NCBI GenBank assembly: GCA_947307225.1
Contig: CAMZIL010000007.1
Coordinates: 1-42,850 of the forward strand
Length of the DNA: 42,850 nucleotides
Direction: 5' to 3'
Source: an uncultured Candidatus Saccharibacteria bacterium
GTDB taxonomy: Bacteria; Patescibacteriota; Saccharimonadia; Saccharimonadales; Saccharimonadaceae
The notes beneath the pieces were generated by a model that saw only the letters and a program-made list of their open reading frames with translations, was not told the DNA's origin and did not search any database. Below, piece by piece: positions 2,052 to 16,297 of this stretch (within the stretch, counting starts at the first letter, position 1; every line of letters starts with the position of its first letter). The position numbers were made by a program, and so were the translations under genes.

Positions 2052-3290
2052 CTACTCCTCCTTTCCGCTTTTGTCAATATTTGCGCACCAGACTTTTTCA
2101 GAAAAGTCCGACTTATTTTTTAAACATTCGTAGATGTCGTCCTCTATTGTTTCCTCTGCTTTTAGATAGTAGAAGAACATCGGCTTCTTCTGCCCGATAC
2201 GCTTAATGCGTCCCCTCGCTTGCACGCTCGTGCTGAAAGAATAGTTTGGGCTAACGGCGCACCAGTAGTTCATAAACTGTAGGTTTAATGCCTCGCCACC
2301 ACTCGCATAATGCGCTACCACAATATCGTATTTACCTATCGTATTGATAGCAGGTATCTCGTGGTGCTTCCCATCGATGCGCCATACCCTCGCTCCCTTA
2401 GGTAGAACTTTCTTTGCAATTTCGCAAACCACTTCTTCCTCCTCGATATAGTTGCAAAAGAATACGCAGTTCGTTCCAAGGTTCTCAATAAAGTCGCTTA
2501 ACCACTCCTTTTTCTCGTCTGTGAGACAGATTTGCCGTAGGTAATGGCATAAGCCCATCGTCGTTTCGATTAGCTCACCGTCCCTATTAAGCCTCGTTTT
2601 TATAATCTTCTTATAATCTTTAGGAGGTTTAAACTTCACGACTTTATGCGTCTCGCCAGGTAGTTCTCTTGCAGCTCTCTCTGTGCTAGGTATTGTCGTT
2701 ATACTATGCCAAATTTTTACGAGCTTCTCTTCGTTCAAATAAGATGTAATCTCTGGGTAGCCCTTATAGGTTTGTACGATACAGTACTCGCGCATAAAAC
2801 CGGTCTTATTGTTTACTTTTTTGGTCGCTACCATATATGGCATAATATCTATCCATCGATCGCCGGGTGTGGCCGTATAGCCAGACCAATCTTTCGTTTT
2901 ATAACATATATTCTGGAACGCTCTACCCATCCCGGTCGTATAACCTTTAGCTTTTGCCACCTCGTCAAAGATGTAAACATACTCTCCAAGGTTGTCCTTG
3001 TTCTCCTTTTGCCACTTCGCTAGCTTATGCCAACTAATAACGTTGAATTTTATTGTGCTTCTCCACTCTGCTCCATTCCAAATGTCGGCCTCTTTCTCCA
3101 TATCACCGCTTTTTGTTTTTGTTGCAGTAGTTACCACGAGAACCTTATCTTTCTCGGTCTCTAAACACTTTTCCTTCGCCCAACGCATTGCAATAGCAGT
3201 TTTTCCGAAGCCTGTACCAAGAATTGCGATGTTTTTATCTCCTAACAGTTCCTCCATAGCTTCTCTCTGGAACTCGTACAACTCAGGCAT
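2052..3290 (-). CDS. SNF2-type superfamily 2 DNA helicase/ATPase
   Basis: 412 residues. A Q-motif-like start (YEFQREAMEEL) precedes Walker A GTGFGKTA at residues 25-32. The Walker B/motif II reads YIFDEVAKAKG near residue 110, where DEVA replaces the usual DExH. GYTATPGD near residue 138 is motif III. The second lobe has FFCNYIEEEE, VVAHYASGGEALNLQ (motif V) and QARGRIKRIGQKK (motif VI), the arrangement of SNF2-like phage helicases. It probably remodels or unwinds recombination/replication intermediates with the neighbouring Sak4 and SSB-like proteins. The start follows GGGGGAGAG and overlaps the end of the upstream zinc-finger gene by eight bases, so translation is probably coupled. Confidence 0.85.
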   Translation of the reverse strand: MPELYEFQREAMEELLGDKNIAILGTGFGKTAIAMRWAKEKCLETEKDKVLVVTTATKTKSGDMEKEADIWNGAEWRSTIKFNVISWHKLAKWQKENKDNLGEYVYIFDEVAKAKGYTTGMGRAFQNICYKTKDWSGYTATPGDRWIDIMPYMVATKKVNNKTGFMREYCIVQTYKGYPEITSYLNEEKLVKIWHSITTIPSTERAARELPGETHKVVKFKPPKDYKKIIKTRLNRDGELIETTMGLCHYLRQICLTDEKKEWLSDFIENLGTNCVFFCNYIEEEEVVCEIAKKVLPKGARVWRIDGKHHEIPAINTIGKYDIVVAHYASGGEALNLQFMNYWCAVSPNYSFSTSVQARGRIKRIGQKKPMFFYYLKAEETIEDDIYECLKNKSDFSEKVWCANIDKSGKEE

Positions 3291-3633
3291 CTCTCCCCCT
3301 TTTCTTTTGGCCTAGCTCGTTCGCCAATATCACTGCTATACTCTCCACGCCTCCGCCATTTGAAATATCAGCCAACACCTTTTCCGCCACTCGTTTATAC
3401 TTAGCCTCCTTTTCTTTTTCTCGTCTCTTTCTATTAAGAAACTTAGATGTGCTATTCCTTTTCAGCCTAAACTCTTCATCGACTTTCCTGCGTCGGCTGA
3501 TACTCTTGGTGCAAGAGATGCTCGCTCCTCGCCTACGACACTCATCGCTACAATATGCAGCGTTTACTCTTACGCATCCTCGCTCGTTCGGTGGTATTTC
3601 TCGCCCGCAAATCTTACATTTTTTACTATACAT
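3283..3633 (-). CDS. small zinc-finger protein
   Basis: 116 residues. The N-terminus has a CxxC knuckle (CKICG, Cys6/Cys9) and, about 20 residues later, YCSDECRRR with a CxxxC pair (around Cys28/Cys32), the treble-clef style common in phage zinc-finger proteins that look like truncated HNH proteins. No HNH catalytic His/Asn pair is visible. The remainder is very basic and helical (RRRKVDEEFRLKRN, RKRREKEKEAKYKR), consistent with nucleic acid binding. The start has no good SD and lies just past the stop of the upstream gene, suggesting translational coupling. It overlaps the helicase gene by eight bases, so the two may be co-translated. Confidence 0.65.
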   Translation of the reverse strand: MYSKKCKICGREIPPNERGCVRVNAAYCSDECRRRGASISCTKSISRRRKVDEEFRLKRNSTSKFLNRKRREKEKEAKYKRVAEKVLADISNGGGVESIAVILANELGQKKRGRDA

Positions 3634-3634
3634 T

Positions 3635-4069
3635 TTATTTATTAATCCGTTCTTCAGCTAATTTTAAGAACTCGTTTTTAACGTATTCGAATTTAGAAAC
3701 AGCTAAGTTGCTCGCATACGACACTAACTCGGTGTATTCTTTGTCGCTTATATCTAAATGCTGTTGTTCGATAATAGTGTCAATAGCAGACTCGCCAACC
3801 ACTGAACATAGCTCTTCGTAGTTGCTCTTCAACTTATCCAATTTACCGTTAGTGTAATAAGCTTCTCCGCTAAAGTTTCTGCGCAGGATATCCTCGATAT
3901 CTTCTTTGATTATTTCGTCGTATAAAACAGATAGAATATTTTTACACCGCTCTTTCGCTTCCTTCTGTTTTTTGCGCATCTCTATAAAAGCTTTTACTTC
4001 TTCGTCGTCGTAATCAATCAAATCGTCGTCGCCATTCTCGGCGGCAAATAAAACTTTAATCTTTCCCAT
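3635..4069 (-). CDS. hypothetical helical protein (144 aa)
   Basis: 144 residues. After a short hydrophobic start (MGKIKVLFAAEN), an acidic patch DDDLIDYDDEE precedes a charged helix (AFIEMRKKQKEAKERCKN) and several further helices to EERINK. No motif or family is recognised. A strong SD, AGGAGG, lies before the ATG. It is in the left-arm unit of small unknown genes that leads into the helicase/Sak4/SSB genes; such small early proteins often modify host functions, but nothing in the sequence shows this. Confidence 0.65.
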   Translation of the reverse strand: MGKIKVLFAAENGDDDLIDYDDEEVKAFIEMRKKQKEAKERCKNILSVLYDEIIKEDIEDILRRNFSGEAYYTNGKLDKLKSNYEELCSVVGESAIDTIIEQQHLDISDKEYTELVSYASNLAVSKFEYVKNEFLKLAEERINK

Positions 4070-4087
4070 AATAGTCTTCCTCCTATA

Positions 4088-4342
4088 TTATTTTAATTCG
4101 TTTTCTTCTACCCACATATGATAATGGTTAAGGTCGTGATACCCGTCCTGCCAAAAGTCAAAGTAGTCGCCAGGTACATATTCCTCTCTGTCGTAATAAC
4201 CGGTCGCTTCCTTTTTCTCCTGCGCGTATTCTCTTGCTAAATGTTTTTCTGCGTCGCTCCTATTGGTGTACGCGCCACAGCAACCGCTATTAATACCGCT
4301 CATATCGCCGTTAGACGTGTATAAGACTAAATATACTTTCAT
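4088..4342 (-). CDS. small hypothetical protein (84 aa), Tyr/Asp-rich
   Basis: 84 residues starting MKVYLVLYTSNGDMSG, a beta-strand-like opening, followed by SGCCGAYTNRSDAEKHLAREYAQEKKEATGYYDREEYVPGDYFDFWQDGYHDLNHYHMWVEENE. The pattern (short strand, Cys pair, helix, aromatic/acidic tail) resembles small phage proteins of unknown function that carry a strand-turn-helix core. The SD AAAGGAGG lies about 10 bases upstream of the ATG. No catalytic residues can be argued. It is acidic and probably soluble. Confidence 0.65.
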   Translation of the reverse strand: MKVYLVLYTSNGDMSGINSGCCGAYTNRSDAEKHLAREYAQEKKEATGYYDREEYVPGDYFDFWQDGYHDLNHYHMWVEENELK

Positions 4343-4361
4343 TCCTCTTCCTCCTTTCTTT

Positions 4362-4640
4362 TTATAGTTTCCTAGTATGGTCTTGAGCTGGTGGGATTTT
4401 CGGTTTCTGACCTACGTCCTCCCATTTCGCGTATTGTGCAGGATAGCCCCATACCTTAGGTTTATCTAACTCCCTCTTATCTTCCGTTGGCTTCTCTTTT
4501 CTTATTGTTATACCTCTGTGTTTAACCTCTTCGCCATAGTTGGCATTGTCGATTACCCACATAATGTCGTCTGCTAATGTGTACTCGCCATCGTCGCAAA
4601 GATCGGTCGCTGAGCCACACCACTCTAATACTATTCTCAT
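4362..4640 (-). CDS. small hypothetical protein (92 aa)
   Basis: The reading frame can be extended to a GTG at 4652, but the ATG at 4638-4640 overlaps the TGA stop of the upstream gene (ATGA), the usual coupled start, so I place the start there: MRIVLEWCGSATDLCDDGEYTLADDIMW..., 92 residues. The middle reads ITIRKEKPTEDKRELDKPKVWGYPAQYAKWED and the C-terminus is basic and Pro-rich (KPKIPPAQDHTRKL). No family is recognised. It follows the 155-aa gene directly and is likely translated with it. Confidence 0.6.
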   Translation of the reverse strand: MRIVLEWCGSATDLCDDGEYTLADDIMWVIDNANYGEEVKHRGITIRKEKPTEDKRELDKPKVWGYPAQYAKWEDVGQKPKIPPAQDHTRKL

Positions 4641-5104
4641 TTTGATAGCCACTCGTCGTCGTTAATCTCGCTAACAACCTCTAAGATTGGAAAGTCGCCA
4701 CATTTCTCCCAGTTCTCACTAGTGTCGTTCCAATACTCTTCCGTTGTCGCGCCGTCTTCCCCAATGCACACTTCCTTACATAGCTCGCCACTTTTGTCCA
4801 TTGCCTCGTGATATGCTCGCTCGTCAAAGAAGTTATAGCCCATCCACTTAATGTCGTCCCAACCGAACTCTACGTACTTTCCATCTTTCGTCTCCCTAAA
4901 GATGTCCGGCTTAAGTGTCATCTTCTTATTGTAAATCGTCGGTATATTCCACCCACCTTTGTCTTTCAAAACAATAGTGTGTTCATCTTCTTCTACTACC
5001 TCGCTATCTTTAATGTAGTTCGTATAGTATTTCGGTGCCATCTCTTTAATAAACTCCCAACCTTTCTTAGTCGTCCCAATGCGTACATCACATCTGTATC
5101 CCAT
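4637..5104 (-). CDS. hypothetical protein (155 aa), acidic and Trp-rich
   Basis: 155 residues beginning MGYRCDVRIGTTKKGWEFIKEMAPKYY. It alternates strand-like segments (DEHTIVLKDKGGWNIP, KYVEFGWDDIKWMGYNFF) with acidic stretches near the end (CIGEDGATTEEYWNDTSENWEK). The opening with MGYRxDV resembles small phage proteins that start MGYRSDV, a recurrent but uncharacterised type. The SD AAAGGAGG stands before the ATG, and the stop overlaps the next gene (ATGA). No enzymatic motif is visible. It sits in the run of small left-arm genes. Confidence 0.65.
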   Translation of the reverse strand: MGYRCDVRIGTTKKGWEFIKEMAPKYYTNYIKDSEVVEEDEHTIVLKDKGGWNIPTIYNKKMTLKPDIFRETKDGKYVEFGWDDIKWMGYNFFDERAYHEAMDKSGELCKEVCIGEDGATTEEYWNDTSENWEKCGDFPILEVVSEINDDEWLSK

Positions 5105-5122
5105 TAACGTCCTCCTTTCTTG

Positions 5123-5533
5123 TTAATCAGTTTTCTCGATAAAGTATTTGAGCTTATCTTTCGGCCAGTTGTCGAAAACGTAGCCGTCAATAATATCGCA
5201 TACTTCTTGGTATTTTTTCGCTAGAGCTTCTTCCTTTTCCCACGTCGCCCACACTCGCCAATTACAGTAAAGATATGTCGCCGTAGTCATTTTCTCGTCT
5301 TCCATATCTTTCATCATCGTGTAAAGTGTGTCGTGTTTCTTGCCGAAAAGATCGCCCGTTAAGTTCGTGAACATATCTGCCACAGCAAGTGCACGCATAT
5401 ATTGCTCACTTTCCTCGTCCAAGTTCATCTCTTCGTAGTTACCAACTAACGAGTGTAATAGTTTCTCTGAAAACTCAAACATCTCGTCCGATGTCAGCGC
5501 GTCTAATTCTTCTTGTGTAACTTTTATAGGCAT
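5123..5533 (-). CDS. hypothetical acidic helical protein (136 aa)
   Basis: 136 residues, strongly acidic and helical (VTQEELDALTSDEMFEFSEKLLHSLVGNYEEMNLDEESEQYMRAL...), with a Trp cluster YCNWRVWATWEKEEALAKKY in the second half and YVFDNWPKDKLKYFIEK at the end. The SD AAAGGAG is embedded in the last codons of the 45-aa gene upstream, so expression is coupled. No family is recognised. The acidic surface would fit a small inhibitor or DNA-mimic type protein, but that is only a possibility. Confidence 0.65.
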   Translation of the reverse strand: MPIKVTQEELDALTSDEMFEFSEKLLHSLVGNYEEMNLDEESEQYMRALAVADMFTNLTGDLFGKKHDTLYTMMKDMEDEKMTTATYLYCNWRVWATWEKEEALAKKYQEVCDIIDGYVFDNWPKDKLKYFIEKTD

Positions 5534-5536
5534 TTA

Positions 5537-5674
5537 TTATTCTCCTTTCTTGTTAATTTTTGTCGCTATTTCTCTCGCTAAGTCGCTGATGTTCCACGAC
5601 GGGTCTTCTGCCTCGCTCTCGCCATAGTTTCTCGCAACCCAACTTTTAATAATTTGCTCTATCTTGTCAGTCAC
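5537..5674 (-). CDS. small GTG-initiated protein (45 aa)
   Basis: A short reading frame begins at a GTG (5672-5674), six bases after a perfect GGAGG that lies in the last codons of the upstream gene. It reads VTDKIEQIIKSWVARNYG, then SEAEDPSWNISDLAREIATKINKKGE and stops at 5537-5539, three bases before the next ATG. Both flanking junctions are tight and its own end supplies the SD of the next gene, which argues that it is translated. The product would be a two-helix, amphipathic acidic peptide. No family is recognised. Confidence 0.6.
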   Translation of the reverse strand: MTDKIEQIIKSWVARNYGESEAEDPSWNISDLAREIATKINKKGE

Positions 5675-5675
5675 T

Positions 5676-5873
5676 TTATACCTCCTTTCCCATAACCAAC
5701 GCTATTAAAATCGCTTCTTCATATGTTATATTGCTCGTTCCTGATACATATAGTGGGTAGTCGCTGATAAACTCCATAGCTTTCTCGCCGGCTTGCTCCA
5801 CCATTCTCTTTGGCATTTTTGAAATGGTCGCCTTCCATTGTTCAATTTGTTTTTGTATAGCTCTCTGTGCCAT
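5676..5873 (-). CDS. small hypothetical protein (65 aa), first gene of left unit
   Basis: 65 residues (MAQRAIQKQIEQWKATISKM...), with a basic amphipathic N-terminal helix and a C-terminal segment NITYEEAILIALVMGKEV. The start is chosen because GGAG lies about six bases upstream of this ATG. A competing frame, 5726-5920, overlaps it but lacks that support. It is the first gene after the consensus promoter at 5941-5969, so it is likely the most strongly transcribed of the left unit. No function is recognised. Confidence 0.6.
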   Translation of the reverse strand: MAQRAIQKQIEQWKATISKMPKRMVEQAGEKAMEFISDYPLYVSGTSNITYEEAILIALVMGKEV

Positions 5874-5940
5874 CTCGCTCCTTTCGTTTTACATTTAACT
5901 CGCTCTTTTTCACCTTTCATATTATATTTATTATAAGTCC

Positions 5941-5969
5941 ATTATAGCATACATAATTAAGAAAGTCAA
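5941..5969 (-). promoter_or_regulatory. consensus sigma70-type promoter, leftward
   Basis: On the - strand TTGACT (5964-5969) and TATAAT (5941-5946) are separated by exactly 17 bases, and the -10 carries an extended upstream TATGC. It faces the 5873-to-1 gene string and is the obvious promoter for it. Confidence 0.85.
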
Positions 5970-5996
5970 TAGTTTTTTGCAATTTCGCTCATTTCG

Positions 5997-6083
5997 CCCT
6001 TCATCGTCGTCATCATCTTCATCGTCATCTTCATCGTCATCGTCGTCATCGATCTCGCCCGTCATCGTCATCATCGTCGTCGC
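5997..6083. repeat. TCATCG/TCGTCA microsatellite tract
   Basis: About 85 bases made almost only of TCA, TCG and TCT triplets (repeats such as TCATCGTCATCTTCATCG). It lies upstream of the promoter at 5941-5969. In the + frame it would encode polyserine, which I regard as a by-product. It could be a replication-slippage product or a multivalent binding site. Confidence 0.8.
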
Positions 6084-6334
6084 TTGTAGTTTCGTAGTGT
6101 CGTCGAGTAGTTTCGGCGCGCTTCGCTCGTGTCGGCGTGTCGTAGAGGATGATAGTGTTCGCTCTACACGGACGCTTTTCAGAGTCTCACTGCTAGTTTT
6201 TGTTTCTTGTTTATTTTTGTACCTCGCTCTATAATCTCTCTTGTCGTTCTTATTTAGTTCTCCCTCATAACTCGCACTAAGTCGTGCTATTAGTTTTAAT
6301 AATAAAGTCGCGGCATAATGTCGCCACGAAAAAT
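6084..6334. other. non-coding gap with GATAGTG/TCGCT repeats
   Basis: No supported gene lies between the left unit promoter and the terminator of the MoxR/VWA operon. The gap contains GATAGTG followed by TTCGCTCT at 6151-6165 inside a small hairpin (GTAGAG 6142-6147 with CTCTAC 6162-6167), and a TCGCTCTATAAT copy near 6223-6234. These motifs recur in the 11.5-11.8 kb gap. Confidence 0.5.
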
Positions 6335-6383
6335 CGCCGAGTGTTATGATAGTGCTCGCTAAGAGCGCTATCTAAACTCGGCG
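6335..6383 (-). terminator. terminator of the MoxR/VWA operon
   Basis: A long hairpin pairs CGCCGAGT (6335-6342) with ACTCGGCG (6376-6383), with an inner GATAG/CTATC plus GCTC/GAGC stem. On the - strand the outer stem is followed by ATTTTT. It starts eight bases after the 6391 gene end and fits rho-independent termination of leftward transcription. The inner left arm contains one of the GATAGTG-CTCGCT repeats. Confidence 0.75.
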
Positions 6384-6390
6384 TATAATA

Positions 6391-7971
6391 TTATGCTTTA
6401 ATGTCTACCACAGAAACTTGCTGGCGAATGTCGTACTCGTCATATTTCTGTGCGGTCTCTGCATCGTTTAGCACTCTAATGTCGCTAGATATATTTACAT
6501 CTAACCATTTTAGTTTACCTTTATTAATATAGTCGGTCTCTAAAGTTGACCCTTCTAGGTCTTTCTTATGTATCTCGTCAAGGCCGTCGCTGATGTTTAA
6601 CACTACAATTTGCTCGTATTGTTTATCTTTAAGTTGCTGATTAACTCGCTTCAGTACGCAACTAAAGTCGTTCCCACCGCCCGCTTGGTAGTTTCGCATT
6701 TGTTCCTTCCAAGTGTCGCTCTCTACTGGCACTAACGGAGTCGCACTACAACGATGCATAGTCGCTTGCAAGTTCTCATAATGAACTTCTAGTTTAAGTT
6801 TCTCGGCTTGCTCTTTTACTTGTTTCATTAAGTCGTCGACGATATTCGCCACATATTCTTGCTGATTAACCATTGAACCACTCGCATCCACAGCTAGCAC
6901 AGTAAGCACGTTCGATTTGTCTACTTCTTTAACTCGCTCAATCTTCGTTCCTTTACGTAGCACGCTATATCGCTGGTCACCATACATGCCAATTCGCTTG
7001 CTTGGTCGCGCATAAGTCTTCTTTAACACTCGTTTCTTTACGTCGTTATAAATTACGCAATCTGAGGTCGCATCATATTTTAGCTCGTTAGTAAGGCTCG
7101 CTAAGATTAACTCTTTAACTTGCTTTAAGCCTTTCTTCTTAAGCTCGCTCGATAGTTTCTTGTCGGTAGAGCTGTCGCCTTCGTCGCCCATACCTTCCGC
7201 ATTAGCCACGCTCTGATCGCTCGCTTGCTTTTCTTGTTCAAGCTCTCGCTCATAGCGCTCGGCCTGTCCGGTCGCTTCCATCATTTCATCCATTGCCTCG
7301 CCGGACTGGCTCGCTGAACTGCCACGTTTGTCTTGCTCGTTCAGCACAAGTTTATTCATAATCGCTTCCAAAGTATGTGCGCCTAAAGTCTCTGGGTGAA
7401 ATCGCTTATTAGTTACTCCAGGAAGTTGCTGAGTTGGATTGAACATATATGTTCGCCCCATAATGCCGTCGTTTGCTTGTATCTCGCACGCTACTTGCAA
7501 CTTTTGCTGGTATAGTTTGCTCTTCTTTCTCGCTGCAACACGTAGCTTGCTATGCTCGTTAAATGCGTGCGTTAACTCGTGCAATATAATGTCTTTAATC
7601 TCGCTCAACATTATATATTCATTTAGCACCCATTCGTTGCCGTCAGCGTTCGCTAGCCAACGTTGCTCCGAGTCGGTGTAGAACTTCTCTTCGCCAATTC
7701 GCTCTATGAGTTCCTTCGTATTATATTCTTTAAACGGTCGCTCTAGAAGTTGCTTCATCATTTTCGCTGAGATAAATACGTTTTTGCCGTCGGTACAAGC
7801 CGGGCTACCAGTTCGCTCTAAGACGGCGTTCTCTTTCGCATACTTAGTCGCCGTGCAGATTCGCTCAGGGTATTTCTCCAGAAGGTATCTGCCGGTAATC
7901 GTTTCTTTAAGTTGTTCCAAAGCTTTCTCGATAAGCTCGTCATATTTTTTAATCGGGTATTCTTTCACCAT
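6391..7971 (-). CDS. metallopeptidase-like/VWA domain protein (DUF2201 type)
   Basis: 526 residues. The start is set at the ATG at 7969-7971 because AAAGGA lies five bases upstream; the frame extends six codons further but without an SD. The N-terminal domain has HELTH at about residues 131-135, a HExxH-type zinc-peptidase signature as in the N-terminal metallopeptidase-like domain of DUF2201 proteins. An acidic/Gln-rich linker near 200-260 leads to a C-terminal von Willebrand A domain with the MIDAS motif DASGS near residue 362. Such proteins are partners of MoxR AAA+ ATPases in bacterial chaperone-like modules, and a MoxR-type ATPase lies two genes upstream. The phage target is unknown. It is the last gene of the operon, followed by the terminator at 6335-6383. 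Confidence 0.85.
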   Translation of the reverse strand: MVKEYPIKKYDELIEKALEQLKETITGRYLLEKYPERICTATKYAKENAVLERTGSPACTDGKNVFISAKMMKQLLERPFKEYNTKELIERIGEEKFYTDSEQRWLANADGNEWVLNEYIMLSEIKDIILHELTHAFNEHSKLRVAARKKSKLYQQKLQVACEIQANDGIMGRTYMFNPTQQLPGVTNKRFHPETLGAHTLEAIMNKLVLNEQDKRGSSASQSGEAMDEMMEATGQAERYERELEQEKQASDQSVANAEGMGDEGDSSTDKKLSSELKKKGLKQVKELILASLTNELKYDATSDCVIYNDVKKRVLKKTYARPSKRIGMYGDQRYSVLRKGTKIERVKEVDKSNVLTVLAVDASGSMVNQQEYVANIVDDLMKQVKEQAEKLKLEVHYENLQATMHRCSATPLVPVESDTWKEQMRNYQAGGGNDFSCVLKRVNQQLKDKQYEQIVVLNISDGLDEIHKKDLEGSTLETDYINKGKLKWLDVNISSDIRVLNDAETAQKYDEYDIRQQVSVVDIKA

Positions 7972-7982
7972 AATATTCCTTT

Positions 7983-9053
7983 CTAACATTCCTTAACAAG
8001 TTCGCTCATGCTAACACATAATGCCGGCACGAACACTCTCGCTCTATACTCGTTCTCTCTAATCGCGTGCAAGCCTGTATACAAAGTCATCTTCTTAGCG
8101 TCGTCGTCGCCCTTCGCTTTGTAAGTTTGCAAGATTAGTCGGTATGCTTTGCTACTCAATTTATTCGCACGATAATATACGTCGTTACTTTTGCCCCAAA
8201 CTCGCTCGTTATTCTCGAGGCCAAGCTCGTCCAGCATCTTTACCATTCGTTTCGCTTTATAGTATTCGGTAATCGCTGCAGTAAGTTGCCCGAAATATCG
8301 CTTGTAATAGTATGTTCCAGTTCCGTAATAACCCAACGTAGAAGCTTTCTTGGTAACTTGCTCGATAGTGTGGTTCAAGAATGTGTTGTTCCTACTCGGT
8401 CGCAATGCTATCTCGATTAAGTCGTGCTTTAACTCGTTCGTAAGCTCGTCGCCTAAGATTTCGCCCAACTTATCCCTATTAAAGTATCCGTAAAAGTTCG
8501 CGCCATAATTGCTCTCTACATTTTGTATTGTAGCCCTATCTTGCTTTGCTTTCTTGATAAACTCTTTGTGTAATTCCGGCGCATAACGTTTCACGATATA
8601 GTTAATACGCAACATCTCTTTACAGCGTGAATTGCGGTGCTCGTTCTCGAACCTCGCATCGTGTGGTCGCAGGCTAAATACCGCCATTTGTTCCACGATT
8701 TTCTTGCCGTATAACTCGCACGCTTTCTTGTAAAATATGCTCTCACGATATGTTCCCACTTTATACTTGTCGTTTACAGTTCCAATTTTATATATCTTGT
8801 TATACTTGCAGAAACTCTCGTCGTCTATGCTCGCTTTGCGAGTTGACATTTTAACCGCACGATAAAGTTTGTTGTAAGGTTGCAGAATCCATTCGCTACC
8901 GAACATCGCACCTAGTATGTTTCCAATGTCGCTACTGTCGACTTTTAACCTCATCGCTAAACGTCGCTTAAAGTTATCTTCATAACCGCTTCTTATTCTA
9001 TCTTCATAATTTACAATATCTCGCGGGCTAATGTGTGTTAAAGTCTCTTTCAT
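7983..9053 (-). CDS. unknown protein of the MoxR/VWA module (356 aa)
   Basis: 356 residues, basic and Tyr-rich (RSGYEDNFKRRLAMRLKVD, YYGTGTYYYKRYFGQL), mostly predicted helical. I recognise no family. It is locked between the MoxR ATPase gene (TAATG overlap at 9053) and the VWA gene, a position in MoxR modules usually held by an accessory or substrate-adaptor protein, so a role in the same complex is a reasonable inference. The SD AAGGAG lies in the end of the upstream gene. Its HDARFENEHRNSRCKEML stretch holds His/Asn/Cys residues but forms no motif I can name. Confidence 0.7.
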   Translation of the reverse strand: MKETLTHISPRDIVNYEDRIRSGYEDNFKRRLAMRLKVDSSDIGNILGAMFGSEWILQPYNKLYRAVKMSTRKASIDDESFCKYNKIYKIGTVNDKYKVGTYRESIFYKKACELYGKKIVEQMAVFSLRPHDARFENEHRNSRCKEMLRINYIVKRYAPELHKEFIKKAKQDRATIQNVESNYGANFYGYFNRDKLGEILGDELTNELKHDLIEIALRPSRNNTFLNHTIEQVTKKASTLGYYGTGTYYYKRYFGQLTAAITEYYKAKRMVKMLDELGLENNERVWGKSNDVYYRANKLSSKAYRLILQTYKAKGDDDAKKMTLYTGLHAIRENEYRARVFVPALCVSMSELVKEC

Positions 9054-10099
9054 TAGTTGTTCTCCTTATTTAATTCGATAACTCGTTGGTTAATCTTAAT
9101 GATAGCCTCGACGGCTTTCTTCGTTGTGCCTTTCGGTGAGTTAAGTATCTGCCTACGTAGCGCGTTAAGCTCGTCCACGTCCGTCATCATTAAGATGTCT
9201 TGCGTAGTCGGTAGATTATCTTTACGCTCTTGTGGCACTACAACCTTGCTGATATTCTCGCTAGTCAAGTTCGCCCAGTTGGTCGTTACAATACCGTGTC
9301 CAATAGTGCGCTTGCTAATCTCGTCCGCCATTCGCGGAGTAAAGTTGTCCGCTACTTTCGCACGATAATTGCATACTTTAAAGTAGTTCATTAAAGTACG
9401 TGGGTTCGTTCCGTAAAATTTCGTATTGTCGCACCAGTGCTCGCTTGCGTCGTTAATAGTGTCGCTTACGAACTTCTCTAAACGTTCCGTTCCAAGTAGT
9501 CGCTCAATATCTGGCATAACGTCGCTCGCTATGCCCATCACATATTGTTTATAGTCGCTCGGCGTGTTCGTCATACGAACCGTTACGAACCTCGTTTTAA
9601 GTGGACGGCTAAGCTCGCACCCTTCGGTCGTATCTTCCGCTGTATTCGCTGCCGAGACTATCACTACATTGTCGGGCAGTTTGTCGTCCGGGTGAGTCGG
9701 TACGATTCTCGCTGTCAAAAGTATCTGAATAGCGTTCATCACTTCAGGTCGCGCGATAGTAATTTCATCTAAGAACAAGATTTGTGGTCGCTCTGGGTCG
9801 TTCTTGAAGTTCTCTAAAATCTTTACTAGCCAATCTGGCTTGTCATAGTTAATCATATTCGTCGCTGCGTTATGTACCGGAATACCGTTAATCATCTCTT
9901 CGCACAAGCTCGCTGCGCCAAGTTGCACGATAAAGTATTCGTCTGCCATCGCTTCAATAATTGACGATTTACCACACCCAGGCTCGCTGTATATAAGTAA
10001 ATTCGTTTTCGTTGCTAAACATTCCGCTACTAAGTCGCGAATCTCGCTAGCCTTTACAATAGATAGCCCCTCGTAAGAGCCGTTAATTGAGTTTTCCAT
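9053..10099 (-). CDS. MoxR-type AAA+ ATPase
   Basis: 348 residues. Walker A SEPGCGKSS is at 38-46 and Walker B ILFLDEITIARPEV has Asp111/Glu112, with the long insert after it (RPEVMNAIQILL) that marks MoxR/RavA-like AAA+ proteins. Sensor 1 is SAANTAED (Asn152) and LSRPLKTRF (Arg165-Arg170) provides the arginine finger region. These ATPases form hexamers that remodel proteins together with VWA partners; a VWA/metallopeptidase protein is encoded two genes downstream. The SD is AAGGAG followed by GAACGAAAATAC before the ATG, almost the same leader as the next gene upstream. A gas-vesicle GvpN or McrB-like role is less likely given the VWA/HExxH neighbour. Confidence 0.9.
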   Translation of the reverse strand: MENSINGSYEGLSIVKASEIRDLVAECLATKTNLLIYSEPGCGKSSIIEAMADEYFIVQLGAASLCEEMINGIPVHNAATNMINYDKPDWLVKILENFKNDPERPQILFLDEITIARPEVMNAIQILLTARIVPTHPDDKLPDNVVIVSAANTAEDTTEGCELSRPLKTRFVTVRMTNTPSDYKQYVMGIASDVMPDIERLLGTERLEKFVSDTINDASEHWCDNTKFYGTNPRTLMNYFKVCNYRAKVADNFTPRMADEISKRTIGHGIVTTNWANLTSENISKVVVPQERKDNLPTTQDILMMTDVDELNALRRQILNSPKGTTKKAVEAIIKINQRVIELNKENN

Positions 10100-10117
10100 G
10101 TATTTTCGTTCTCCTTA

Positions 10118-10381
10118 TTATTTATTAATCTCGCTTACTAGCTTCGCTAGTTCGCTTTTTGTTTTAATTTCGTCTGTTAACTTAATCAAATAATCTTTCA
10201 CGATTTCCGCACACGCAAGTTCCTCGTTAATCTCGTCAAGATCTTCGCTGTCTAAGCTCTCTTTCTCAACTTTCTCGCTTAAGTGTTCCACGTACATCTC
10301 TATAATCTCAATCGCCCAAATTAGTTTGTACTCGTCGCTGGCTTTCACGCCCGCTAATACGTACCCCTTAAAGTCTTTCAT
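10118..10381 (-). CDS. small acidic helical protein (87 aa)
   Basis: 87 residues with heptad-like acidic helices (EMYVEHLSEKVEKESLDSEDLDEINEELACAEIVKDYLIKL), likely a short coiled coil. The leader AAGGAGAACGAAAATA before the ATG is nearly identical to that of the MoxR gene downstream, suggesting the two should be translated at matched levels. No family is recognised. Its place at the head of the MoxR module could make it an adaptor, but nothing in the sequence proves this. Confidence 0.6.
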   Translation of the reverse strand: MKDFKGYVLAGVKASDEYKLIWAIEIIEMYVEHLSEKVEKESLDSEDLDEINEELACAEIVKDYLIKLTDEIKTKSELAKLVSEINK

Positions 10382-10411
10382 TATTTTCGTTCTCCTTTGT
10401 TGTTATTAAAT

Positions 10412-10606
10412 TTAGTCGTTCTGCATCGCTGAGATGCTCGCACGATAACGTTGCTGTTGTTTCGTTCTCGCTAACCTCCTTTCTTGTGTGCGCTTTTTAA
10501 CGCTGCTCTTACGAATCGCTTTTAACTGTCGTTTGATATTTGTCGTTTCATAGTCGTCATATATCTCGTAATCATTCCATCTTGAGTCGCTCAAATAGTT
10601 TTCCAT
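10412..10606 (-). CDS. small highly basic protein (64 aa)
   Basis: 64 residues. An acidic/aromatic N-terminus (MENYLSDSRWNDYEIYDDYETT) is followed by a strongly basic C-terminal half (RQLKAIRKSSVKKRTQERRLARTKQQQRYRAS), probably one long basic helix that binds nucleic acid. The start has AAAGGA about seven bases upstream. No family is recognised. It lies in the promoter-proximal part of the MoxR/VWA operon. Confidence 0.55.
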   Translation of the reverse strand: MENYLSDSRWNDYEIYDDYETTNIKRQLKAIRKSSVKKRTQERRLARTKQQQRYRASISAMQND

Positions 10607-10629
10607 ATAATCCTTTCTTGCAATATCGC

Positions 10630-10884
10630 TTATTTAACTAGATTGTTATAGTCGTCGCACCAAGCCGTTTCATATTTCTCAGCCTCAGCCATACAGGCTG
10701 CTCGCTCGGCTTTGTATTCCGCATAACTCGCTTTCGCTTGTTGTATCGTATATAAGCCAGTGAAAATCGCTGCCCAAATCGCTGTGCAAAGTAGCAACAA
10801 ACTCGCTACATTAAGATTATGTTTTAGTTTTTTGTTTTCGCTCGCTAGATAATCACGCTCTGCGAAGTTCGTTCTATAAATCAT
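10630..10884 (-). CDS. small single-pass membrane protein (84 aa)
   Basis: 84 residues with one transmembrane segment at about 28-49 (VASLLLLCTAIWAAIFTGLYTI). A charged N-terminus (NFAERDYLASENKKLKHN) and a charged helical C-terminus (KASYAEYKAERAACMAEAEKYETAW) flank it. Two Cys lie in the C-terminal part. There is no signal-peptidase site, so it should be an anchored membrane protein; more positive charge before the segment suggests N-in. Its start has AGAGGA upstream. It could tether the MoxR/VWA complex to the membrane or act in early takeover; both are guesses. Confidence 0.6.
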   Translation of the reverse strand: MIYRTNFAERDYLASENKKLKHNLNVASLLLLCTAIWAAIFTGLYTIQQAKASYAEYKAERAACMAEAEKYETAWCDDYNNLVK

Positions 10885-10938
10885 ATTGTATAATCCTCTT
10901 TATTATTTCGTTTAGTATTTTCGTTTTTGTTTGTCGCT

Positions 10939-11421
10939 CTATTCTATCGTTGCCTCCTTCCAATTTAATGCTCGCTGAATAATGTCGTAAACTTTATCCA
11001 TTGGAATATATCGCCCTGTTTTCTTTCTCAGTTTGCTCGCTAGTTCGTATTGGTCTTCACACTCGCTCGCAATCCTTCTCACCGTTTTCGCTGTGAGCGT
11101 TATGCTATGTTTCTCTGCAAACTCTCTCGCACGTTCCTCTCTATAATTTCGCTTTGGAATTATAATTGAACCGTACCCATACTCGTTCGCTTCTTTAATT
11201 CGCTCTAATTCTTCGTCCGTTAATTTGCGCACCTTAACTTCGCCGTGCTTGCTCGCTCTACCACCTCGGTGGCTAATGCTTCCGGCAAACTCGCGCTTTA
11301 ATTCCGCCATAATATCGCTAGATAAGTTAAAGTTTAAATCTAACTCTATTGGCTCGCTAATAAATTCGCTCGTATCAATATCTAAATTGATATTGATATG
11401 CTCGCTCTCTTTATTCGCCAT
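10939..11421 (-). CDS. hypothetical protein (160 aa) with shared N-terminal motif
   Basis: 160 residues. The N-terminal part, SEPIELDLNFNLSSDIMAELKREF, closely parallels SEPININFNLSSEQANAFSEMFKK in the next gene upstream (11907-12329), so the two share an N-terminal domain, probably by duplication. The rest is basic and helical (RASKHGEVKVRKLTDEELERIKEANEYGYG, then LTAKTVRRIASECEDQYELASKLRKKTGRY, resembling a helix-turn-helix-like or SAP-like pair of helices). DNA binding is plausible but not shown. The region before the ATG has AAAGCGAG instead of a GGAGG, an odd SD that matches the local AGCGA motif. It is the first gene after the promoter at 11470-11498. Confidence 0.6.
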   Translation of the reverse strand: MANKESEHININLDIDTSEFISEPIELDLNFNLSSDIMAELKREFAGSISHRGGRASKHGEVKVRKLTDEELERIKEANEYGYGSIIIPKRNYREERAREFAEKHSITLTAKTVRRIASECEDQYELASKLRKKTGRYIPMDKVYDIIQRALNWKEATIE

Positions 11422-11469
11422 ATTTTCTCGCTTTCTTATTATTAATTATTTATAATACCCTACATATAT

Positions 11470-11498
11470 ATTATAGCATACTCGCTCAAGTTTTTCAA
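11470..11498 (-). promoter_or_regulatory. sigma70-type promoter of MoxR/VWA operon
   Basis: On the - strand TTGAAA (11493-11498) and TATAAT (11470-11475) are 17 bases apart, with the same extended TATGC before the -10 as the promoters at 5941 and 12436. It faces the 11421-to-6391 operon. Confidence 0.8.
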
Positions 11499-11846
11499 TA
11501 ATTCGCTTTGATTTCGTTTTATAGTTTTACAAATTCGATCGCTCCACAAACTCGCGCGGATCGATCGCTTGCTAACCTTTCTCACATTTCTCGCTCTACA
11601 AAGTTGATAGTGATAGTGAGCTCGCTCTATAATTTTTCTCTATTGGCTCGCTGCGGAAGCTCGCTCGAGTAAGAGTGTAGTTAAGGTTGGATAGTGATTC
11701 GCTCTGGAGATCCGCCGGCGATCTTCGCTCTATAATCTCGCCGGCTCTCGCTCGCTAATTTTTGCTATTATATGCTTATGCTTATATACTCGCTTGCTCG
11801 CTCGCTCTGTTTTTTCGCTCGCTTTACTCGCTCGCTAAAAGCGCAA
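11499..11846. repeat. non-coding gap saturated with TCGCT motifs
   Basis: No gene is supported here. By eye about 24 TCGCT pentamers lie on the + strand within 11461-11940, against one AGCGA before 11940 (11851-11855). Longer units recur: GATAGTG at 11606-11618 (tandem) and 11690-11696, each followed by TCGCT; TCGCTCTATAAT ending at 11633 and 11736; and a perfect inverted repeat GCCGGCG (11714-11720) with CGCCGGC (11739-11745). Similar units occur in the 6.1-6.36 kb gap. Confidence 0.8.
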
Positions 11847-11876
11847 AAAAAGCGAGGGCTTTTCGCTCTCGCTTTT
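11847..11876 (-). terminator. terminator after the 11907-12329 gene
   Basis: AAAAGCGAG (11848-11856) pairs with CTCGCTTTT (11868-11876) around an 11-base loop. On the - strand the stem runs into a seven-T tract; the + strand also has a T-rich flank, so it may work both ways. Confidence 0.75.
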
Positions 11877-11906
11877 CTTTTTTCTATCTCGCTTTACTTG
11901 CTCGCT

Positions 11907-12329
11907 TTACTTGCTCGCTAAGTAAGTAAGCACTTGCTCATTAGCGACGATATTATGCGCTTTTAGCACTTGCTCTATATTTTCGCTTGTATTCGCTAGT
12001 TTATTGGCTTTTAGTACGGCTTGAATAAGGGCTTTAAACGCTTGTACTTTTTCGCATTGTACTCGCTCGCTCTTTTTCTCGCTATCTCCCCATATAACGC
12101 TTTTAAGCGTGCTTTTAGGGATATGCTCGCTATAATTGAAAACTAGCACTTGCTTAGTTTTTTCGCTCTCGCTCTCGCTCTTGCGGTTATGAATAACTAG
12201 ATATGAATAACCTAGTTTATGATATTTTTGCGCCAGTTTTTCAGTGGCTCGCTTTTTAAACATCTCGCTAAAAGCATTGGCTTGCTCGCTTGATAGATTA
12301 AAGTTTATATTGATTGGCTCGCTTTTCAT
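11907..12329 (-). CDS. hypothetical protein (140 aa), paralogous N-terminus
   Basis: 140 residues. The first 25 (MKSEPININFNLSSEQANAF) match the N-terminal motif of the gene at 10939-11421. The middle holds SESESEKT, encoded by tandem copies of the AGCGAG motif that fills this region, and the C-terminus is helical (FKALIQAVLKANKLANTSENIEQVLKAHNIVANEQVLTYLASK). No family is recognised. It is the first leftward gene from the arm junction, with its own terminator downstream, so it is likely a very early product. The SD could be AGAGGA some 13 bases upstream; AGCGAG sits where an SD normally would. Confidence 0.6.
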   Translation of the reverse strand: MKSEPININFNLSSEQANAFSEMFKKRATEKLAQKYHKLGYSYLVIHNRKSESESEKTKQVLVFNYSEHIPKSTLKSVIWGDSEKKSERVQCEKVQAFKALIQAVLKANKLANTSENIEQVLKAHNIVANEQVLTYLASK

Positions 12330-12435
12330 TGCTCGCTTTTCCTCTCTATCAGTGCACTATTTAATTATTATTATTTAGTTTTTGCTCGCTTTATGTTTTT
12401 GCTTGCTTAGTTTTTTAAAGTACAATGATATTATT

Positions 12436-12446
12436 ATTATAGCATA
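12436..12446 (-). promoter_or_regulatory. extended -10 promoter of the 12329 gene
   Basis: On the - strand TATGC-TATAAT (TATAAT at 12436-12441) repeats the extended -10 of the other two left-arm promoters; the -35 position is not a good match. It lies about 107 bases before the 12329 start codon. Confidence 0.6.
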
Positions 12447-12484
12447 TCTTGCTCGCTTGCATAGTTTTATTTTATCGCTATTGT

Positions 12485-12904
12485 AATTCGCTACCCCACA
12501 GTCCCCCCTTTTTGCCGTCTATACCCCCTGATTTATCAGGGGTGATTTGGGGTTACTACCAAGCCACATCAAAACATACAAATGTGTTGTAATATGAAAA
12601 TTAAAACATATTTTGAAATTTTTTGTATCCACGCGATTAAGACATTTCTGAAAAATAAGTCAATTTTTTACGAAAACAATCCAGGCGAAAAGTCAAGTAC
12701 CCCTGTTAGCAAATCCATATTACACCAAAATGTTTTTTGAGAATGTAAAGTATAACCGGCTTAAACCGCTATTACGCCATAAAATCGAGTTGGATACAAG
12801 TTGGATACAGGAGGCACTTTTTTGTAAAAAATTTGCATATTACAGTATATTCTTGCCAGACGCGCCAAAGGATGGCTTGATATAGAGAAAAAATAAAAAA
12901 TCGG
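12485..12904. promoter_or_regulatory. arm-junction control region (possible origin/operators)
   Basis: This AT-rich non-coding stretch separates the leftward and rightward arms. It contains an 18-bp palindrome at 12525-12542 (CCCCTGAT/ATCAGGGG around TT), a perfect tandem 11-bp repeat AGTTGGATACA at 12788-12798 and 12799-12809 with a related inverted TTGTATCCA at 12623-12631, and a homopolymer-rich segment. A spacing of 11 bp puts the two copies on the same DNA face, as in operators or iterons. No gene is supported here. The TCGCT motif ends at 12491, at its left edge. Confidence 0.55.
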
Positions 12905-12965: not shown

Positions 12966-13235
12966 ATGGAGAGCGACGATTTCACTTACAGCTCGTTTAG
13001 TGAGGCGGTTGCCAAACTGGCGAGACACAATATTAATATCATTCACATCTACCAGGACGAGGCATCGGCATTCGTGAGCGTGGATTTTGAGTTTCAGTGG
13101 AGGCCGCGGGCTAACGGGCCGACTAAGTGGACGAAGATGAGCATGCCACTGCATTCTAGTATTACGTTCCCGGAGCTGGCCGCATCACTGGTAGCCATGG
13201 TGCAGGAAGTAAGGGCTGAGGTAGAGGGGCGCTAA
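12966..13235 (+). CDS. hypothetical protein (89 aa)
   Basis: 89 residues (MESDDFTYSSFSEAVAKLARHNINIIHIYQDEASAFVSVDFEFQW...). The N-terminal helix SFSEAVAKLARHNINI, strand INIIHIYQ and sheet AFVSVDFEFQW suggest a small alpha/beta fold. SD AAAAGGAGG lies upstream of the ATG. It is the first gene of the rightward arm, one base before the primase-helicase gene, and probably co-expressed with it. No family is recognised. Confidence 0.7.
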   Translation: MESDDFTYSSFSEAVAKLARHNINIIHIYQDEASAFVSVDFEFQWRPRANGPTKWTKMSMPLHSSITFPELAASLVAMVQEVRAEVEGR

Positions 13236-13236
13236 G

Positions 13237-14949
13237 ATGGATGGGCAGGAGGTGATAACGGCTGATGCGATGGACGCGCTACAGCTTACTTATGGGGTGC
13301 CGACGCGCACACTAGGCGAGGTGTCGGCGATTGCTCAACGTGTTGGAGCCAGCCTAAGTAGGCAGACTAAGGCGGGGGAGACGGCACGGGCTCTGATTAC
13401 GTGCACTATTATTAAGGGGGTGTACGAGCTGGTGAAATTAGCCAACTCGGAGACGTTTTACTATCGATCGAGAAGATATAACCCGGATGCCCCACAAGAG
13501 GCTATTGTTATGACCGCTTTGAACCGGGAGCAGTTGGATGATATAGTTAAGACATGGCATAAGCGAGTGTTTCCTGGCTTTTTCGAAAGCAGTGAGCTGA
13601 AACGAGCGTGTAACACTGTTTATGAGAATATAGAGGAGAAGATTATGGATACGAAATCAGATTACACCATCGTCTCCGATTCTCTCTGTTACGACTCAGC
13701 GACTGGCAAACTTTTACAGAGAGAGGAGCTGCTAGACCCCGACTCTAATCAGATACCACGGGTATACCGTCGGATGTTCGATTCGGACAGGGTTTCTGGA
13801 GACCAGGTGATAGTCCCATCTCTGACCCAACGCCAATCAGACATTCTCCTAGAAGAATATAATCTTACTCTGGAAGAGTTGGGCAATAATAAATTCAAGC
13901 AACATATACCAGAGATTAGCCAGTGGGCATGCGGAGAAGAAGATATATATCGCGACATTATATATATGTATGCGACGGCGTTCATGAAGACTAAGCCACT
14001 AGGGGTATTCTTCCCTGTTGGTGTCGGGCGTAACGGTAAGTCTAGCTGCATGGATCTGTGGGCTTCCTTAGTAGGGACGCGCAATGTGGCGCGGGTGCCC
14101 CTCGACAAGCTTGGGGAGAAGCACTTCGTCACGTCTTTACAGAGAGCGATGATTAATATCCCAGATGAGACGAATGAGTCGTATATTAAGGACCAGGCGG
14201 CTTTTCGTATGGTGGCCGCACATGCCGCATATCAGGTAGAGCGGATGGCATCAAATGAGCCAGTTACCTTACATTGCGACTTTATGATGGCATGTCCGAG
14301 CAACCATATCCCGAAATGGTCGGGCGACTCGGCGGAGGCATGCGTGAAGCGTACGAAAGCGATTCCGTTTAACGCCGACTTTAGTGCATCTGACCTATTG
14401 GCCACCTCTTGGGGGCAGGAGCATTTCACGCCGGATTTCATGGCGAAACTTGCCGGTCATGTGCTAGCGTATGCGTCATATTATTCGAGAAACGAGTGGG
14501 AGGAGACGGCGACGATGATTATGGAGCGCCAGGGTATCGAGGAGGATACGGCGAGCCAGTTTGTTTACGCGCGTCTCTGGTCTGCGATTTTCTGTGGCTA
14601 TGAAGACTTCGAACTTGTAAAGAAAGACTATTCGAACTGGTGTAAGCAGAAGGGCGTCCAAGAGGAGGACATTAAGCGCACCGATGTGTTCTGGCGACGC
14701 TATAAGAGAAATATGGCGAAGAACCCACGCAATGGGCGCGAGGCACATGTATATAAGCGTAAGGATGGAGCGAACAAGATTATTATGTTTAGCGACTTAC
14801 GCTTAAGCAACAAAGCGAAGACCTTTATGGATGGGCGCAAGCTATGCGACTATGTCGAGTTAGGCAGTATCGTATACGACCTTGAGCAAGAAGGTATCCT
14901 TAAGACTGATGCGGATAAAAAACTTATTCAGATGAAGATGGGGTTCTAA
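13237..14949 (+). CDS. SF3 primase-helicase (D5-like)
   Basis: 570 residues. The C-terminal part is an SF3 helicase: Walker A VGVGRNGKSS around residues 262-271, an acidic Walker B-like MINIPDET near 306, motif C/sensor-1 region CDFMMACPSNHIPKW around 350, and KRTKAIPFNADF with a likely arginine finger. The N-terminal 200 residues resemble the D5_N region that precedes the helicase in phage replicative proteins. I do not see a clear primase zinc finger or AEP triad, so primase activity may be weak or in the neighbouring small gene. It should unwind DNA at phage forks. It starts directly after the 89-aa gene. Confidence 0.85.
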   Translation: MDGQEVITADAMDALQLTYGVPTRTLGEVSAIAQRVGASLSRQTKAGETARALITCTIIKGVYELVKLANSETFYYRSRRYNPDAPQEAIVMTALNREQLDDIVKTWHKRVFPGFFESSELKRACNTVYENIEEKIMDTKSDYTIVSDSLCYDSATGKLLQREELLDPDSNQIPRVYRRMFDSDRVSGDQVIVPSLTQRQSDILLEEYNLTLEELGNNKFKQHIPEISQWACGEEDIYRDIIYMYATAFMKTKPLGVFFPVGVGRNGKSSCMDLWASLVGTRNVARVPLDKLGEKHFVTSLQRAMINIPDETNESYIKDQAAFRMVAAHAAYQVERMASNEPVTLHCDFMMACPSNHIPKWSGDSAEACVKRTKAIPFNADFSASDLLATSWGQEHFTPDFMAKLAGHVLAYASYYSRNEWEETATMIMERQGIEEDTASQFVYARLWSAIFCGYEDFELVKKDYSNWCKQKGVQEEDIKRTDVFWRRYKRNMAKNPRNGREAHVYKRKDGANKIIMFSDLRLSNKAKTFMDGRKLCDYVELGSIVYDLEQEGILKTDADKKLIQMKMGF

Positions 14950-16023: not shown

Positions 16024-16297
16024 CGAGTATATCATCTGTTGTAAATGTGGCGACACGCAAAGCTTTAGCCGCGATGCGTTTAAACTTCTTTTTCCTGGGC
16101 GCGCTCTCCCAGAGCAGTATCTGCAGCCAGATCTACATAAGCTGGTCGACAAACTGAACAAGAACAGTAACTTCTGCAAATATATCACTGAGAACCTTTT
16201 GAACGGGAAGAATAAGTTCTCCTATTACTTCTCGGTGGATCCAAAGGGGAACGTGGTGGAGCAATATAATCTGTTAACCGGAAAGAAGGTGTTATGA
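15995..16297 (+). CDS. small CCxC protein (100 aa)
   Basis: The frame can be opened at 15959, but the ATG at 15995 follows AGGAGAG by eight bases and leaves a compact product, MALSLKKKNSEYIICCKCGDTQSFSRDAF..., so I choose it. It has a CCKCG knuckle near residues 15-19 but no second Cys pair, so zinc binding would need another partner. The C-terminal half ends FSYYFSVDPKGNVVEQYNLLTGKKVL, a strand-rich segment. The 5' end overlaps the MazG gene and its TGA stop overlaps the next ATG (ATGA). No family is recognised. Confidence 0.6.
   Translation: MALSLKKKNSEYIICCKCGDTQSFSRDAFKLLFPGRALPEQYLQPDLHKLVDKLNKNSNFCKYITENLLNGKNKFSYYFSVDPKGNVVEQYNLLTGKKVL

Follow-up and report, generated by a model that had tools for sequence, protein, structure and literature searches.

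Chi and the FtsK-orienting polar sequences (KOPS) are short, non-palindromic, strongly strand-biased words whose density varies with position, and iteron and centromere arrays, such as the TubR/ParR sites, are sets of direct, polar and closely spaced sites for binding proteins on the DNA of phages or plasmids. Here we compare with these and two further systems a polar, quasi-tandem lattice in the left arm of a 42,850-bp stretch of DNA (contig 7 of a 1.07-Mb genome that is 97.6% complete; hereafter the window), which by its gene content looks like a tailed-phage genome. The lattice lies on genes, promoters and predicted gaps, has a fixed edge, is strongest over a gene cassette that it encloses (the MoxR-like AAA, p356 and VWA/HExxH genes) and decays downstream. 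A protein system with a comparable way of working is p6 of phage phi29, a phage-encoded multimer that coats long phage DNA with one monomer per 12 bp, nucleates at fixed places and acts in replication start and in early/late switching; it reads bendability, not sequence, and its monomers alternate head-to-head (PMC10899789). In Rho utilisation (rut) sites, cytosines recur along single-stranded RNA at a regular distance of 11-13 nt (PMC6407284).

The most visible part of the lattice is the pentamer TCGCT on the + strand, which reads AGCGA in the direction of the leftward genes. Over the whole window, the + strand carries 201 copies of TCGCT versus 42 of AGCGA. Counted per 500 bp, TCGCT goes from 1-5 copies at 3-5.5 kb to 13, 13, 25 and 16 across 10.5-12.5 kb and stops at 12,491, with none in 12.5-15 kb, and the opposite orientation is found twice in 3.0-12.5 kb. 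The abrupt end, the scarcity to its right and the near absence of the reverse orientation described in the first-pass annotation were thus all recovered. The density and polarity also went far beyond dinucleotide-preserving shuffles: the segment 11,501-12,000 holds 25 TCGCT (shuffle mean 5.35, maximum 12) and the segment 12,001-12,500 holds 16 (mean 2.1, maximum 7). In the first 2.5 kb from the edge, AGCGA was counted 75 times and AGCGAG 45 times, where base composition predicts 3.4 and 0.8, and density falls with distance from the edge (Spearman -0.92 in the window and -0.82 in the related phage G200). The 19 leftward genes contain 120 AGCGA against about 67 expected from synonymous-codon shuffles, with an excess in every codon phase (49/23/48 versus 35/10/22 in the shuffles), and the non-coding gaps are filled as well. 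These data agree with the earlier proposal that the signal acts at the nucleotide level and is not an effect of coding.

A simple pentamer gradient, as initially proposed, proved to be an incomplete description. AGCGA belongs to a degenerate unit, AGCRAnnTTAnnG, of which it is the visible part; the unit follows itself in steps of 12-13 nt (about 12.75) over 12.5-6.0 kb in a quasi-periodic, cassette-linked lattice, and a second relative, G466, uses another word. Distances between AGCGA copies peak at 13 and 26 nt, and the columns flanking the motif repeat it 13 nt off. Base-match autocorrelation at lag 13 reached z values of 9.2 and 8.7 in the window (first and second 4 kb, counted from the edge) and of 10.7 and 7.6 in the same parts of G200; it was near 0 in right arms and host DNA and did not exceed 2.9 in a stretch of the relative G202. 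In G200, AGC-AGC distances peak at 13, 25-26, 38, 51 and 64, with a fitted spacing of 12.74; the same fit applied to the window picks up mainly a 4-nt echo. Among periods of 7-19, a cyclic 13-state model beat all others in both the window and G200. Profiles trained separately on the two were nearly alike (AGCRAnnTTAnnG, with gains of 670 and 796 nats), and training on one phage and testing on the other gave 525 and 651 nats. With a free fit, the cassette coding sequence alone yielded 520 and 611 nats, versus 192-215 after synonymous shuffling, and a right-arm stretch of similar length 53 nats. A profile learned on the other phage puts the genes for AAA, p356 and VWA above their synonymous shuffles by z 9.5 to 15.4. 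Coding alone cannot create a 13-nt period, because 13 is not a multiple of 3, and the lattice crosses genes in every codon phase and also runs over promoters and two gaps predicted to lie between operons. An ordinary tandem repeat or minisatellite was rejected, as Tandem Repeats Finder reported only short local arrays of 2.5-13 copies and none across the region. The pattern is well established, whereas the function proposed for it below is tentative.

Using the cross-trained profile, the posterior was 0.8-1.0 per 500-nt bin over 6.35-12.35 kb and the lattice had faded by ~4.4 kb; the corresponding limits in G200 are 36.5-44 kb for a high posterior and ~47 kb for the fading. The gain per kb held a plateau of 59-97 nats for 6 kb in the window and then dropped, near the predicted T2/P3 junction and past the VWA gene. 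The steady gradient reported earlier therefore holds for the density of exact AGCGA but not for the strength of the 13-nt pattern, which keeps its plateau over ~6 kb before it falls. At the other end, the lattice begins just inside an edge element (12499..12542, Table 1), and its onset lies ~45-60 nt upstream of the predicted P1 -10 box in both the window and G200, three AGCGA sites being upstream of the predicted P1 start and the 5' leader being weaker. The C/G-rich box and the CCCC..GGGG hairpin at this edge are kept in G200 (L012, near 16060-16120), and box and hairpin may mark an origin or a control element. Comparable layouts of terminator, gap and promoter were readable in G200 and G466. 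As a separate observation, the heptamer CACTATC occurs in one orientation at 11696, 11618 and 11612 in the T1-P2 gap and at 6354 and 6157 around T2 and in the T2-P3 gap; G200 has it once per gap (36901 and 42322), which is not so in G466.

Table 1. Positions of the lattice, its edge, predicted transcription signals and genes in the window.
Feature	Position	Strand	Basis or remark
Core lattice, 13-nt quasi-tandem unit oriented leftward	6000..12500	-	posterior 0.7-1.0 per 500-nt bin, G200-trained cyclic hidden Markov model
Weak, patchy lattice tail	4400..5999	-	posterior 0.3-0.5 per 500 nt; gain declines to around zero or less
Edge element, C6 box, sense GGGGGGACTG	12499-12508		G200 alignment of intergenic region
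Edge hairpin, 8-bp stem, CCCCTGAT-TT-ATCAGGGG	12525-12542		G200 alignment, fine posterior map
Predicted P1 -10 box, TATAAT	12436..12441	-	sequence and pattern match
Putative terminator T1, inverted repeat with T-runs	11848..11876	-	tool lists + strand; leftward sense also hairpin and T-run
T1-P2 non-coding gap, lattice-filled	11499..11847	-	18 AGCGA in 11500-11840 (341 nt)
Predicted promoter P2, TTGAAA-17-TATAAT	11470..11498	-	11/12 consensus bases
Putative terminator T2, CGCCGAG..CTCGGCG then T-run	6329..6383	-	read in sequence
T2-P3 non-coding gap, mostly lattice-filled	5970..6328	-	posterior 0.6-0.98 down to ~6050
Predicted promoter P3, TTGACT-17-TATAAT	5941..5969	-	11/12 consensus bases
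ORF1 (open reading frame), 140 aa	11907..12329	-	AGCGA 33/kb
gene2, 160 aa	10939..11421	-	alignable in all three lattice phages
64-aa Lys/Arg-rich protein	10412..10606	-	similar protein in G200 only
MoxR-like AAA ATPase	9053..10099	-	Pfam AAA_5 1e-8; phrog_1297 ATPase 1e-27
p356, fast-evolving cassette protein	7983..9053	-	20% identical in G200
VWA protein with HExxH (HELTH), last cassette gene	6391..7989	-	weak Pfam VWA_2 match 0.0014; motif from translation
Downstream helicase gene, also in lattice-less relatives	2052..3290	-	AGCGA 4.0/kb
Divergent right arm, 89-aa ORF and primase-type protein, without lattice	12966..14949	+	PHROG DNA primase matches; posterior near background

Comparison with related phages tied the lattice to the cassette. 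The 57.7-kb sequence of G200 is collinear with the window (identities of 77% for terminase and for helicase, 62% for AAA and 20% for p356) and its lattice has the same word and the same edge, so that the conservation of pattern and end point for which a check had been suggested does hold in this phage. Out of 82 aligned window sites, 24 coincide with a G200 site versus 1.1 at random, a number to which shared ancestry contributes. G466 (60.7 kb; capsid 81%, AAA 48% and primase 23% identical) has a similar gene layout, but its word is RCTA, with a spacing of about 5.5 and 11 nt, starting from the homologous edge. Its sense strand carries 17-41 GCTA per kb over ~8 kb, compared with 5.7 per kb outside, and this stretch ends at the corresponding edge; the cassette coding sequence gave 433 nats at K=11 versus 207-228 when shuffled. 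The gradient of word density was not significant in G466.

The AAA and VWA genes are present in the window, G200 and G466, all three of which bear a lattice. In the more distant relatives G201, G202, G469 and the 21-kb locus L010, neither gene was found by tblastn and no lattice was detected by lag and word tests, despite shared helicase, Sak4 and primase-type genes; some of these lattice-less contigs may be incomplete. Four others (G468, L173, L172 and L001) are fragments that lack the greater part of this region and are uninformative on the lattice. The orthologous helicase gene, ~9 kb downstream of the edge, contains 10.5 AGCGA per kb in G200 and 4.0 in the window, versus 0-0.8 in the lattice-less relatives, while its GCTA count is 21.5 per kb in G466 (partial gene) versus 2.4-8.1 elsewhere. 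The word appears to be imposed in cis on this shared gene, more weakly with distance, and only in cassette-bearing phages. As these three carriers are related to each other, they represent few independent events. No lattice was seen at the MoxR-like ATPase loci of three other phages. A search of viral contigs for word clusters (at least 120 stretches) gave, among the loci examined, no multi-kb oriented array and mostly local periodic repeats. L050, L104 and similar viral loci have local oriented GCTCGCT repeats with many matches ~108 nt apart (periodic gene repeats), unlike the lattice.

Among the described systems, phi29 p6 is the nearest analogue in its way of working, although we do not claim that the lattice belongs to the p6 type: p6 reads no sequence and is a symmetric dimer, whereas the lattice is a specific polar word imposed on coding DNA. 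The contact period of p6 is ~12 bp; the spacing of the lattice is ~12.75 nt in the window and in G200, and that in G466 is 5.5/11 nt. No p6 homologue was identified in the window, although no search was aimed at p6. The lattice resembles iteron and centromere arrays in being direct, polar and short-spaced; such arrays, however, are short and largely non-coding, whereas the lattice is degenerate and spans ~6 kb of genes.

Our preferred reading, to which we give a probability of roughly 0.4, is that the lattice consists of head-to-tail sites for a nucleic-acid-coating protein, with a reader encoded by the cassette, and is read on DNA rather than on mRNA. The units would be adjoining sites for a polymerising protein, with ~12-13 nt per protomer and base preferences for AGC-R-A and TTA. 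From a start at the edge, beside the divergent control region, the coat would spread into the cassette and mark or organise it, and it could be used in early-gene switching, as an aid to replication start or in DNA protection. The reader would co-evolve with the word, which would explain the other word and spacing of G466. Reading on DNA, whether double- or single-stranded, is somewhat favoured over reading on mRNA, because the lattice fills predicted gaps and begins upstream of the predicted P1 start, in stretches that would be little transcribed if the predictions hold. A tentative extension, possible but doubtful, is that of a polar, sequence-specific coating code with a period of 12-13 nt, laid over ~6 kb of protein-coding sequence, read by a cassette-encoded protein and spreading in cis to adjacent genes, in which word and spacing change from one related phage to another as a self-identity tag.

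Several points weigh against this coating model. Since the terminators and promoters are predicted, transcripts may extend across the gaps, and any such readthrough would undo the case for DNA. The carriers are only three related phages, and their spacing differs (12.75 versus 5.5/11 nt), so that one protein family would have to accommodate both. The nearest analogue, phi29 p6, does not read sequence (PMC10899789). The best guesses for the reader are gene2 or p356; the reader protein was not identified among the cassette candidates examined, the predicted structure of gene2 is confident only in its C-terminal part, and all of its fold matches, weak winged-helix-like ones included, were insignificant.

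Reading on mRNA ranks first among the alternatives that remain, ahead of a replication signal and then a mutational origin. In the mRNA case, an RNA-binding protein of the phage or the host could step along the leftward transcript every 12-13 nt and act in antitermination, stabilisation, selective translation or self-marking. Such an mRNA lattice would account for a word that is always in the sense of transcription and for the co-directed genes behind P1 and P2, and a 13-nt step with a 12/13 wobble fits single strands as well as duplex. We nevertheless consider it rather unlikely, as the onset lies upstream of the predicted P1 start, the 5' leader is weaker and two gaps past predicted terminators are filled. 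RNA folding is also ordinary, its energy being that of dinucleotide shuffles, which led us to reject selection for unstructured mRNA. Moreover, Rho, the RNA-binding ring known to step by 11-13 nt, is missing from the host: PF07497 and TIGR00767 had no match in the host genome, nor did TIGR00767 in 12 genomes of the genus. Rho utilisation was rejected on this ground and on composition, for rut sites are C-rich and G-poor whereas the lattice RNA is C-poor (G exceeds C on the sense strand, with C at 15-20%). A known structured RNA family was rejected separately, Rfam giving no match at the gathering threshold in the window. The host genome and the 12 genomes of its genus lack even the ATPase cross-matches to the Rho model seen in other families of the order, which hints that they may also be without F-type ATP synthase.

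An improbable alternative is a replication signal on single-stranded DNA: a fork would run leftward from an origin at about 12.5-12.95 kb with the sense strand as its lagging-strand template, and the lattice would direct a strand-binding protein, priming or helicase loading. The two gene arms, which diverge from 12.5-12.95 kb, have GC skews of opposite sign, the word is polar, and the edge lies at a conserved non-coding region with a hairpin and a G-rich box, beside a primase-type gene. However, the origin is itself an assumption and skew also tracks the direction of the genes; a lattice is absent from the other fork, and the lattice-less relatives carry the same primase, helicase and Sak4 genes.

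Slippage, tandem duplication or context-biased mutation of one strand near the edge, with no reader at all, appears less probable still. A few perfect short tandem copies are present, for example 13 nt x 2.5 at 11,888-11,919, and strand-specific avoidance is common to the three cassettes: GTC, CCAT and GGTC stand at 0.06-0.28 of expectation there, versus 0.58-0.89 in right arms. Yet the unit is spread as point-level choices in conserved genes, in all codon phases and beyond synonymous shuffles; a ~20-fold enrichment of the pentamer with fixed spacing is hard to obtain from simple mutation bias; and the pattern is tied to one cassette. The sense-strand words avoided in all three cassettes are GTC, CCAT, GGTC, TCC and CCC, though the enriched words differ, and GTC alone is at 0.19-0.28 of expectation compared with 0.77-0.81 in right arms (regions compared: window 5.0-12.49 kb; G200, L012 and L013, 36.1-43.6 kb; G466, L181, 1.5-9.0 kb). 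Codon use in the cassettes is shifted as well, with AGC making up 0.59-0.67 of Ser codons versus 0.20-0.26 in right-arm genes of the window, G200 and G466, and CTA 0.70 of Leu codons in the G466 cassette versus 0.08.

The analogies with Chi, KOPS and uptake sequences drawn in the first-pass annotation did not survive comparison with host DNA, where 20 stretches (~0.4 Mb) carry AGCGA/TCGCT at ~1.3 per kb per orientation with no excess and no consistent skew. The lattice word shares with Chi and KOPS a short, non-palindromic, strand-biased form and a position-dependent density, but it is limited to one phage region, is 13-nt periodic and changes between related phages. Chi depends on over-representation and orientation in the host and KOPS on polar enrichment along host replichores, neither of which was seen in these stretches; a DNA uptake sequence would be dense in both orientations across the host, whereas the host is not enriched and the phage copies run one way. 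That the phage acquired such a motif from its host, though the word is polar, dense and non-palindromic, is thus barely credible, as the host DNA sampled shows no excess or orientation of AGCGA, the 13-nt spacing is left unexplained and the G466 word differs.

The phage-type content of the window includes PHROG matches for terminase and DNA primase, a Sak4-like protein, a helicase and a capsid-like protein (so named by inference) that is 82% identical to its counterpart in one relative. The host is likely a member of the Saccharibacteria, because a relative of the window helicase sits in a Saccharibacteria metagenome-assembled genome, although phage contigs can be misbinned. The right arm is largely occupied by a 2,452-aa ORF (27787-35145), 47% identical to a G200 ORF. 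In the cassette, the VWA protein (6391-7989) combines HELTH (HExxH) with VWA beside the MoxR-like ATPase, which suggests a metallopeptidase-VWA fusion; no relative of it was present in the phage record collection.

Within a literature search of limited reach, no description of such a pattern was found, and in no system that we considered is coding DNA overlaid for kilobases with a long, polar rhythm that is both sequence-specific and non-triplet. The lattice amounts to a second, non-triplet code over several kb of coding DNA, replaced in a relative and fitting none of the systems considered. If the coating model is true, the lattice would be a legible case of a system that coats or marks nucleic acid and shapes the sequence of genes in cis.

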